Assembly (NCBI RefSeq): GCF_900110455.1
Contig: NZ_FOIS01000003.1
Span: forward strand, 265,491 to 329,490
Length of the DNA stretch: 64,000 nucleotides
From: Natrinema salifodinae
GTDB lineage: Archaea > Halobacteriota > Halobacteria > Halobacteriales > Natrialbaceae
Direction of reading: 5' to 3'
Shown here: positions 48,462 to 51,274 of the stretch, one piece after another
Position numbering within the stretch: position 1 is the stretch's first letter
Layout of the letters: each line of letters starts with the position of its first letter
Program-made: the position numbers and the translations under genes
The notes under the pieces: model-generated
What the model was told of the DNA's origin: nothing
What the model saw: the letters and a program-made list of their open reading frames with translations, nothing else
Databases searched by the model: none

Positions 48462-48813
48462 ACGTGATCGTTTGCTATTCTAGTCAAAATACCTATTATT
48501 ATACCGAATTGGCTGCTTCAATTTCAAGTTTGTGACTGAATAAAGAAATTGTATTACCAAACACTACTAAAATCAGACCGAGTGACGATCAATCGACAAG
48601 ATTGGAGTGACGACAGTTCGGCAGCGTGATCGACTCGGTCTTTCGGACGCCGCACTCGATGTCGCTTTCGACCGCGTACTCCATTTGATCTAACACACCG
48701 AACAGGTGTCAGACACACCTGCTCGCGAGCGTGCGACTCCGCATTCAAGGTTCAGCAACTGATCCTCAAATTCTATCGATTCACTGCACTGATCGAGAGA
48801 GTTCGTAAGAAGT
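48462..48813. other. 352 bp AT-rich gap between the transferred gene and tRNA-Tyr
   Basis: No complete gene. One minus-strand short frame (48589-48684) reads MEYAVESDIECGVRKTESIT then LPNCRHSNLVD, open back to a stop just before HLFGVLDQ, and looks like the C-terminal remnant of a protein. I see no copy of the tRNA 3' end that would mark an attachment site. Confidence 0.4.
48589..48684 (-). pseudogene. possible gene remnant
   Basis: 31 codons from ATG 48684, extendable upstream by seven codons (HLFGVLDQ) to a stop. The peptide has two Cys and a protein-like composition but no start region of its own. It could be a decayed end of a larger gene or a chance frame. Confidence 0.25.
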
Positions 48814-48886
48814 CCGCCCTCCCCGATTTGAACGGGGGGCAAGTCGATCTACAGTCGACTGCTCTACCAGTCTGAGCTAAGGGCGG
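48814..48886 (-). tRNA. tRNA-Tyr (GTA)
   Basis: 73 nt on the minus strand. Acceptor CCGCCCT pairs AGGGCGG, D-arm GCTC/GAGC, anticodon stem GTCGA/TCGAC with loop CTGTAGA (anticodon GTA), T-arm CCCCG/CGGGG with TTCAAAT. The C1-G72 pair is the archaeal tyrosine identity element. No intron. CCA is not encoded. Confidence 0.96.
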
Positions 48887-49023: not shown

Positions 49024-49710
49024 ATGAGTAAGATCACGTTCCGCGCCGACGACGACCTCGTCGAGCGACTCGAGGCCCTCGACGCCTCCAAAAGCGAAGT
49101 AATGCGGGAGGCGCTGCGGTCCTATCTCGAGGGAGCCGCGCCGCGGAACGATGACTCTCAACCGCAGACAGCCCAGAATCTCGACGGACAGGGACAGGGC
49201 GCGATCGACGACCTCGTCCGGAAACGGGTCGACGAACGGCTCGAGCAGCGACTACGAGAGTTAGGTCTAGGACCGCACTTCGATCAGGCGGGCGCACACA
49301 CGAGTCATGCTCCCACACTGTCCGACGCGACCGGCGACATCACCGTCTCGGTCTCGCTCGACGGCACGAACTCGCCGTCCGACAACCGCGCTCGGGTCGA
49401 CCAGGCGCACCCGCGTAAGACGACGGACGCAGCGGCTGACCGTGCGCCGACTCCGAACGGCACGAAGGAACGGCCGGAATCGGAAGCCGACGCGGGGTCC
49501 GACACCGACGAAGCGAACCGACAGTGTACGCAGTGCGGGGAAGAACTCGACGGCGATCACGTCTACTGTCCCAACTGCGGCGAGAAGGCCGCACGACGAC
49601 TGTTCTGTGAGTGCGGTGACGAGATCCGGTCCGACTGGGGATTCTGTCCTAGTTGCGGTCGTCGGACGCCGGCGGCGGACGTGTTGGAGACTGACGGGCA
49701 GCAGTTCTGA
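49024..49710 (+). CDS. cdrL: ribbon-helix-helix protein with double zinc ribbon, CdrL-type
   Basis: 228 aa. Residues 1-45 are a ribbon-helix-helix (MSKITFRADDDLVERLEALDASKSEVMREALRSYLEG). A helical ERLEQRLRELGLG segment and a disordered acidic middle follow. The C-terminus has two zinc ribbons (CTQCGEELDGDHVYCPNCG and CECGDEIRSDWGFCPSCG). Position upstream of the short RHH gene and ftsZ2 matches the haloarchaeal cdrL-cdrS-ftsZ2 locus, where these proteins control division-gene expression. Confidence 0.85.
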   Translation: MSKITFRADDDLVERLEALDASKSEVMREALRSYLEGAAPRNDDSQPQTAQNLDGQGQGAIDDLVRKRVDERLEQRLRELGLGPHFDQAGAHTSHAPTLSDATGDITVSVSLDGTNSPSDNRARVDQAHPRKTTDAAADRAPTPNGTKERPESEADAGSDTDEANRQCTQCGEELDGDHVYCPNCGEKAARRLFCECGDEIRSDWGFCPSCGRRTPAADVLETDGQQF

Positions 49711-49778
49711 CCGGTGTAAGACACGGAAAGTCACGTCCGACGAAAGTTTTATTATTCAAGCCAGACATCGACTTAGTC

Positions 49779-49801
49779 GTGTAAGACGGATCGTCTTACA
49801 C
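49779..49801. promoter_or_regulatory. strong palindrome upstream of cdrS-ftsZ2
   Basis: GTGTAAGAC-N5-GTCTTACAC, perfect 9-bp arms. About 25 bp upstream is an AT-rich TTTTATTATT (49747-49756) that could be the TATA box, which would place the transcription start at the palindrome. Single or paired copies of the half-site recur at 49714-49722, 49846-49866 and 49881-49887. Likely operator for an RHH regulator such as CdrS or CdrL. Confidence 0.6.
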
Positions 49802-49837
49802 CCGCCACCGAGGCGGGAAATCGCCCGATGGCGGGCG
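49801..49837 (+). promoter_or_regulatory. tandem GC hairpins in the presumed cdrS leader
   Basis: CCCGCC-N5-GGCGGG (49801-49817) and CGCCCG-N4-CGGGCG (49822-49837) follow the palindrome. The right arm of the first and the left arm of the second can also pair with each other (CGGG with CCCG), so alternative structures are possible. Whether they act in RNA is unknown. Confidence 0.4.
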
Positions 49838-49845
49838 GTTCCAAC

Positions 49846-49866
49846 GTAAGACACGTCGCGTCTGAC
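49846..49866. promoter_or_regulatory. second, imperfect GTAAGAC palindrome
   Basis: GTAAGAC-N7-GTCTGAC, one mismatch from full symmetry. It lies about 42-62 bp before the cdrS ATG; a further half-site GTCTTAC is at 49881-49887. Confidence 0.5.
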
Positions 49867-49907
49867 AGGGGCGCGCCACCGTCTTACCCTCAACGGGGAA
49901 TACAACC

Positions 49908-50084
49908 ATGGAGCGTGTGACACTGCGAATCCCGAAACAGCAGATCGAAGAGGTCGAACAATTAGTCGATTCGGGCGAGTTCCCGAACCGGAGCGAAGCG
50001 ATTCGGTCGGCCGTCCGCGAGATGATCAACGAACAGGACGCGCCGCGCGAGCAGTCCGGTAAGCGCAACTGGGCCAAGGTGTAA
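49908..50084 (+). CDS. cdrS: short ribbon-helix-helix regulator, CdrS-type
   Basis: 58 aa. [20 protein letters not shown] then [22 protein letters not shown] is a minimal ribbon-helix-helix DNA-binding domain with a short basic tail. Its stop is 2 bp before ftsZ2, matching the cdrS-ftsZ2 operon described for haloarchaea, in which CdrS regulates ftsZ2 and division. The upstream GTAAGAC repeats are candidate targets. Confidence 0.9.
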
Positions 50085-50086
50085 CG

Positions 50087-51274
50087 ATGCAGGATATCGT
50101 TCAAGATGCCCTCGAGAACGCAGAGGAAGAGGCCCGGGAGATGGACGTCTCGATGGACGAGGACGAGTTCGGGGACCCCCGGATCGTTATCGTCGGTTGC
50201 GGCGGAGCGGGCAACAACACCATCAACCGGCTGTATAACATCGGCGTCGACGGTGCCGACACCGTGGCGATCAACACGGACAAGCAGCACCTCAAGATGA
50301 TCGAGGCCGACACGAAGATCCTGGTCGGCAAGTCGCTCACCAACGGGCTCGGCGCCGGCGGCGACCCGTCGATGGGCGAACGCGCGACCGAGATGGCCCA
50401 GAGCACGATCAAGGAGGTACTCGGCGATGCGGACCTCGTATTCGTGACCGCTGGGATGGGCGGTGGTACCGGCACGGGTGCCGCCCCCGTCGTCTCGAAG
50501 ATCGCCAAGGAGCAGGGTGCGATCGTCGTCGGCATGGTCTCGACGCCGTTCAATGTCGAGCGTGCCCGCACGGTCAAGGCCGAGGAAGGCCTCGAGAAGC
50601 TACGCGAGCAGGCTGACTCGATCATCGTGCTCGACAACAACCGCCTGCTCGATTACGTCCCGAACCTGCCGATCGGCAAGGCGTTCTCGGTGATGGACCA
50701 GATCATCGCTGAGACCGTCAAGGGTATCTCGGAGACGATTACCCAGCCCTCGCTGATCAACCTGGACTACGCCGACATGTCCACGATCATGAACCAGGGC
50801 GGCGTCGCCGTCATGCTGGTCGGCGAGACCCAGGACAAGAACAAGACCGACGAGGTCGTCAAGGACGCGATGAACCACCCGCTGCTTGACGTCGACTACC
50901 GCGGCGCGAGCGGCGGACTCGTCCACATCACCGGCGGCCCGGACCTCACGCTGAAAGAGGCCGAGGGTATCGCCGACAACATCACCGAGCGCCTCGAGGC
51001 CTCGGCGAACGTCATCTGGGGTGCCCGTATCCAGGAGAACTACAAAGGCAAGGTCCGCGTCATGGCGATCATGACCGGCGTCCAGAGCGCGCAGGTGCTC
51101 GGACCGACGACCCAGAAACAGGCCGATAAGTCCCGCGCGAGCATCGAAGGGCTCAACGACACCGATTTCGATGCGAGCAACAACGTCGAGAACGCGGGCT
51201 CCGGTTTCGGCGCGCAGAGCGACGGCGGCCGCGAGGAAGTCGAACGCCAGAACGGCGTCGACGTGATCCGCTAG
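50087..51274 (+). CDS. ftsZ2: cell division protein FtsZ2
   Basis: 395 aa tubulin-family GTPase that, with FtsZ1, builds the archaeal division ring. N-terminal extension of ~30 residues, then [19 protein letters not shown], the tubulin signature GGGTGTG at 125-131, [23 protein letters not shown] and the T7-loop region. The C-terminus is a flexible linker ending QNGVDVIR. Co-transcribed with cdrS. Ncs A downstream is on the other strand, as in Haloferax. Confidence 0.95.

Follow-up and report, generated by a model that had tools for sequence, protein, structure and literature searches.

Which protein reads the repeated GTAAGAC/GTCTTAC sites in front of the haloarchaeal division operon cdrS-ftsZ2, and are these sites DNA signals at all? 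How archaea time their FtsZ-based division is for the most part unsettled, and for CdrS and CdrL the binding sites on DNA were previously known just as ChIP peaks or as a motif from a single species. In the window, by which we mean the whole 64-kb stretch of DNA analysed here, the genes follow each other in the order tRNA-Tyr (48812-48886, minus strand), cdrL (49024..49710, plus strand), a gap of 197 bp, cdrS (49908..50084, plus strand) and ftsZ2 (50087..51274, plus strand). The first-pass annotation had described a division operon whose first gene encodes a ribbon-helix-helix (RHH) protein, and this description is correct: cdrS is followed by ftsZ2 as the second gene of the operon, and cdrL is located directly upstream. 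The window is haloarchaeal, its ftsZ2 gene having its closest named matches in Halopiger, Natrinema and Natrialba. According to Pfam, cdrS encodes an RHH protein of 58 aa. The translation and Pfam assign to CdrL an N-terminal ribbon-helix-helix and a C-terminal double zinc ribbon (RHH_1 and DZR; CdrL_M is matched as well, below its cut-off). Since both proteins match RHH_1 above its cut-off, RHH-domain regulators are encoded at the locus.

Five exact GTAAGAC/GTCTTAC heptamers are found at positions 49714-49887 of the window, and one GTCTGAC lies in the same gap. Two of the five (49781-49787, plus strand, and 49793-49799, minus strand) belong to the main operator palindrome GTGTAAGAC-GGATC-GTCTTACAC at 49779-49801, which can be written as 9-5-9 or as 10-3-10. 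One further half-site, GTAAGAC at 49716-49722 (plus strand), is located upstream of the predicted TATA box, and two lie in the leader, namely D1 (GTAAGAC, 49846-49852, plus strand) and D2 (GTCTTAC, 49881-49887, minus strand). The GTCTGAC heptamer (49860..49866, minus strand) is also a leader site; it has the form of the heptamers in the ftsZ1 box described below and makes up the right half of a 7-7-7 element, GTAAGAC-ACGTCGC-GTCTGAC (49846-49866), which has one mismatch. Both the perfect 9-5-9 and the near-perfect 7-7-7 palindrome that had been proposed for this gap are present. Counted over the whole 64-kb window the heptamers are unremarkable (7 copies; shuffle mean 3.9, with 14 of 100 shuffles reaching 7). 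Their clustering within 175 bp, to which the first-pass annotation had also pointed, is far beyond chance, as five exact copies stand against a maximum of two in 300 dinucleotide-shuffled windows. Of 1000 shuffled versions of the intergenic region, two contain a palindrome arm of at least 10, and the 4.27-Mb genome has a single copy of the full palindrome.

Footprinting of related cdrS upstream regions had been set beforehand as a possible refutation of the operator idea; it found the palindrome throughout the class. All 80 named loci gathered by FtsZ2 similarity, as well as the window, carry an exact GTAAGAC-N4/5-GTCTTAC ahead of cdrS. With a spacer of 3-7 the palindrome is present in 374 of 391 class genomes vs 8 of 391 for a reversed control pattern, and it is a single-copy element in 372 of them, two copies being found in G239 and G363. 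Among the 17 class genomes without an exact palindrome, 14 keep cdrS and have a variant at the same place, with a spacer of 2 or an altered arm. The other three (G229, G348 and G362) gave neither a true match to cdrS nor a convincing one to CdrL, and the cdrS locus is probably missing from these assemblies. In a set of 392 genomes of the phylum, 79 of the 81 that belong to the order have the palindrome. Of the 311 others, 6 have it, which is not above chance, and 23 have the reversed control pattern.

A set of 125 loci was used to describe the arrangement of the sites. It consists of the 80 named loci, the window and 44 loci from further genomes, with species partly overlapping, and it purposely takes in all 14 variant genomes. 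If a spacer of 2 is allowed, 117 of the 125 loci are exact, with spacers of 4 in 91, 5 in 18, 2 in six and 3 in two loci. The heptamers therefore start 11 bp apart in 91 and 12 bp apart in 18 of the 117 loci, which is about one helical turn. The palindrome sits 97-137 nt before cdrS in all 117 exact loci. Exact copies of D2 are found 19-32 nt ahead of the cdrS start in 112 of 117 loci, and exact copies of D1 in 84 of 117. In 75 of 117 loci the 110 nt preceding the palindrome contain an exact half-site, compared to 1/117 and 0/117 in two control windows. Beyond the palindrome itself, no shared 11-bp phase was found across the haloarchaeal leader half-sites.

A TATA-like string begins 30-38 nt upstream of the palindrome in 114 of 117 loci, and positions -33 to -28 before the palindrome are rich in T and A (1.0-1.8 bits, 117 loci). 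In the window the sequence and these T/A-rich positions point to a TATA box TTTTATTATT at 49747..49756 (plus strand), directly preceded by a candidate BRE, ACGAAAG, recognized by its sequence. Archaeal promoter geometry places the transcription start downstream of the TATA box. As the TATA box lies at about -33 from the palindrome, the start is predicted to coincide with the palindrome or to lie a few bases from it at most, and because of this position of the operator the regulation of cdrS-ftsZ2 is expected to be negative, i.e. repression. A TATA box, a start site and a 5' UTR are indicated for the Haloferax cdrS gene in a figure legend of PMC8406309.

We consider it quite probable that these sites form the DNA operator of the cdrS-ftsZ2 operon and that they are read by the RHH proteins of the locus. 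The first-pass annotation had named them as candidates for the CdrS/CdrL operator, and this candidacy gains support from the class-wide conservation and from the published ChIP binding of CdrL to the region (PMC7439475). The basic unit would be the 7-bp site GTAAGAC, two inverted copies of which, about one helical turn apart, would make up the main palindrome and hold two adjacent RHH dimers where transcription starts. The remaining half-sites, those preceding the TATA box as well as those of the leader, would strengthen or extend this complex. Direct contact between protein and heptamers and the number of dimers are what we infer from this arrangement. Counting against the operator reading is the spacer range of 2-5, which exceeds what a rigid protein-DNA palindrome usually allows.

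RHH operators composed of repeated heptads are known, for example those of the omega protein of plasmid pSM19035, in which contiguous 7-bp units in direct or inverted orientation are bound by RHH dimers in cooperative rows. The sites described here likewise consist of 7-bp units; they differ from the contiguous omega operators in their 11-bp spacing.

The region itself is the one bound by CdrL of Halobacterium salinarum, with the same operon and the same intergenic region (PMC7439475). In the passages considered, that paper gives no sequence of the site, and its main text uses neither the term "motif" nor "palindrom"; the heptamer, the palindrome and the conservation throughout the class are added here. 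Neither the heptamer operator nor arrays with an 11-bp period were found described in the literature searched, including the passages considered of PMC7439475 and PMC8406309. A single-copy operator found class-wide, together with the ftsZ1 box and the phased arrays described below, provides the exact bases to mutate. The operator and the boxes also predict the regulon in genomes for which there are no data, and they make the division of labour between CdrS and CdrL testable.

Where CdrL is present, it would most likely be the main reader. This is indicated by ChIP-seq in Halobacterium salinarum, in which the region upstream of cdrS-ftsZ2 is reported as the sole reproducible CdrL site (PMC7439475), by the single-copy nature of the palindrome, and by the taxonomic range that both have in common. 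Within the order CdrL is found in 77 of 81 genomes (392 genomes of the phylum searched), compared to 79 of 81 for the palindrome, and among the matches listed outside the order the similarity to CdrL covers the zinc-ribbon part only. The same observations favour a stricter explanation, according to which the operator belongs to CdrL alone, CdrS is no reader, and genomes without CdrL hold a relic or an unrecognised replacement. The Haloferax data point in the same direction, since the published CdrS ChIP misses the cdrS promoter (PMC8406309). However, the shared range of CdrL and palindrome corresponds to one clade and is thus weak evidence. Moreover, a search of 386 class genomes left 13 without a CdrL match, and 12 of these 13 keep the exact palindrome, including all sampled members of the groups g27, g38 and g67, so the rule that the site occurs only where CdrL occurs fails. 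The CdrL-less genomes depart from the statement in the Discussion of PMC7439475 that CdrL is present in all sequenced Halobacteria. For six of them (G001, G002, G007, G026, G137 and G281) the 1.4-2.1 kb preceding cdrS were read and no cdrL was found there; this upstream reading left out G093, G135, G260, G311 and G353, and the stretch of G182 is too short to judge. A search with the N-terminus of CdrL only, carried out for four of these six genomes, gave no convincing match (best E = 0.018). As the CdrL-less genomes retain the palindrome, CdrL alone does not explain its conservation and was dropped as a full account. GTCNGAC arrays also precede cdrS homologues outside the order, where an RHH-bearing CdrL was not found among the matches listed. 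We regard an operator that is CdrL's alone as possible and rather doubtful.

Six haloarchaeal genomes with an intact palindrome have no cdrL beside cdrS (loci L175, L176, L177, L178, L234 and L235).

For our preferred reading, in which both RHH proteins of the locus are involved, CdrS is implicated by a related box upstream of ftsZ1 and by the GTCNGAC arrays at cdrS homologues outside the order. A sequence scoring at least 10/12 to GTCNGAC-N4-GTCNGAC is found upstream of ftsZ1 in 48 of 50 class genomes, and in 46 of the 50 it lies 62-68 nt before the start. Other spacings (2, 3, 5, 6 and 7) reach this score before ftsZ1 in 1, 6, 5, 2 and 1 of the 50 genomes, respectively. The strict box pattern occurs at 28 places in 10 genomes vs none for the control, and misses the ftsZ1 box of the window's own genome, which scores 11/12. 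In most genomes the cdrS palindrome and the ftsZ1 box have the same 7-4-7 geometry, and their inner letters are the same. The palindrome is nevertheless not a GTCNGAC-N4-GTCNGAC box: five of the six specified letters per half agree, and the third from the outer end is A/T, so that the two differ by one symmetric change per half, C to A on the left and G to T on the right; the window's palindrome has a spacer of 5. The GTAAGAC form is found within 100 nt upstream of ftsZ1 in just one of 50 genomes and at the cdrL promoter in just 6 of 117 loci.

From its gene, its position and its symmetry we infer that the ftsZ1 box corresponds to the published CdrS motif of Haloferax volcanii, which is likewise symmetric and similarly placed upstream of ftsZ1 (PMC8406309). 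Table 1 of that paper lists 18 CdrS ChIP-seq sites, with ftsZ1 included at -50 and the cdrS promoter absent; the protein was tagged and expressed from a plasmid. Because the cdrS promoter is missing from this list, CdrS alone is no easy explanation of the palindrome either. In Halobacterium the ftsZ1 level is reported to be independent of CdrS (PMC7439475). None of the eight proteins downstream of exact boxes that were assigned with Pfam is DacZ, PanA, PsmB or Cdc48, the other published CdrS targets; their Pfam identities include Mch, bactofilin, GTPase, CetZ and DUF7139.

Exact GTCNGAC-N4-GTCNGAC boxes were noticed ahead of mch, bactofilin-like, GTPase and DUF7139 genes (L244, L245, L249, L254, L256, L248, L250 and L259). 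They mostly lie 44-53 nt before the start codon, and one is found 212 nt ahead of a cetZ gene.

The region upstream of cdrL contains a box that scores at least 10/12 to GTCNGAC-N4-GTCNGAC in 65 of 117 loci (e.g. L096 and L111), whereas a control inside cdrL gives 1 of 117. The window has no such box at the cdrL promoter (score 7), nor do most loci of the Natrialba group among those listed. To judge from these boxes, CdrS may control cdrL in many lineages while CdrL binds before cdrS. RHH proteins of the Arc/MetJ/CopG type contact their operators through the N-terminal beta-strand. The N-terminal recognition strand of CdrS reads R-x-T-x-R in 125 of 125 loci and the recognition strand of CdrL reads K-x-T-x-R in 117 of 117, so that the pattern basic-x-Thr-x-Arg is common to both proteins; such invariant strands are compatible with closely related half-sites.

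Outside the order, 40 loci were taken from among the CdrS matches listed there. In each of the 40 the 220 nt preceding the cdrS homologue contain one or more exact copies of GTCNGAC, and 31 have at least two. The copies add up to 86, whereas 200 rounds of shuffling gave 1.17 on average and never more than 4; the GTAAGAC form is present in two of the 40 loci. The copies are strictly phased: sites with at most one mismatch form 54, 62, 44, 28 and 34 pairs at distances of 11, 22, 33, 44 and 55 bp, and at most 4 pairs at any other distance up to 60 bp. The longest unbroken 11-bp chain in the 40 loci, again with at most one mismatch per site, comprises 6 sites.

Upstream of the cdrS homologue of L281, about eight GTCAGAC-like heptads stand in a row with an 11-bp period.

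Because the arrays occur at 40/40 of the homologues outside the order and the GTAAGAC form at only 2/40, a phased GTCNGAC array upstream of cdrS looks like the ancestral state, and the haloarchaeal palindrome looks like a reduced and relettered form of it. CdrS is then likely to be the ancestral reader and possibly still active, and a CdrS that reads the operator would give the division operon feedback control. How the operator came to CdrL can be suggested only tentatively, as a handover at the cdrS promoter from CdrS to the new paralogue CdrL, and the odds appear to be against it. Ancestral CdrS would have regulated cdrS by way of GTCWGAC heptads arranged in rows with an 11-bp period; in haloarchaea the row would have shrunk to one inverted pair, and the symmetric C-to-A change would have produced GTAAGAC-N4-GTCTTAC, readable by CdrL. 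CdrS would have gone on using the original sequence at ftsZ1 and, in many lineages, upstream of cdrL. If this is true, the two genes form a feedback loop, and a difference of one base pair in each half-site keeps the two RHH regulators of archaeal division apart.

The leader heptamers could also be conserved as RNA, with stem-loops formed by the palindrome hairpin and by D1-D2 that control translation or decay. The window leader indeed folds better than its shuffles (z = -3.94), and the leader, taken without the palindrome, averages a z of -2.09 over 86 thinned loci, compared to -0.38 for the cdrS gene start and -0.55 for upstream DNA. Complementarity between D1 and D2, together with inner stems, is seen in most of the 57 loci compared, and signs of post-transcriptional control of the operon have been reported (PMC8303175). 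However, half-sites precede the TATA box as well (75/117), and the ftsZ1 box, which has the same geometry, lies upstream of a predicted promoter. An alignment of 31 leaders, drawn from the 81 of the named loci and the window, shows no covariation between paired heptamers; 14 pairs are invariant in 31 of 31 sequences, and the total covariation term is -0.26. Most of the arm variants that were found disrupt the hairpin. We therefore think it improbable that the heptamers are conserved as RNA. A hairpin as the main cause of conservation was rejected: a structured leader is supported, but it leaves the half-sites on the promoter side unexplained. The leader may have an additional RNA role beside the DNA operator, which would not replace the DNA reading. 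A third haloarchaeal factor as reader of the palindrome would suit the imperfect fit of both the CdrL distribution and the published CdrS site list (PMC8406309), but it requires an extra unseen protein and leaves aside that the geometry and most letters are common to the boxes of ftsZ1 and of the cdrS homologues, which makes it very improbable.

Two minor observations concern the leader downstream of the operator. Positions 49803-49907 of the window and related leaders out-fold shuffled sequence in about half of the loci, with a variable mid hairpin and a D1-D2 stem as recurring structures. The string GGGGAAT ahead of the cdrS start codon (49895..49901, plus strand, in the window) is strongly conserved among the loci and is possibly a ribosome-binding element.
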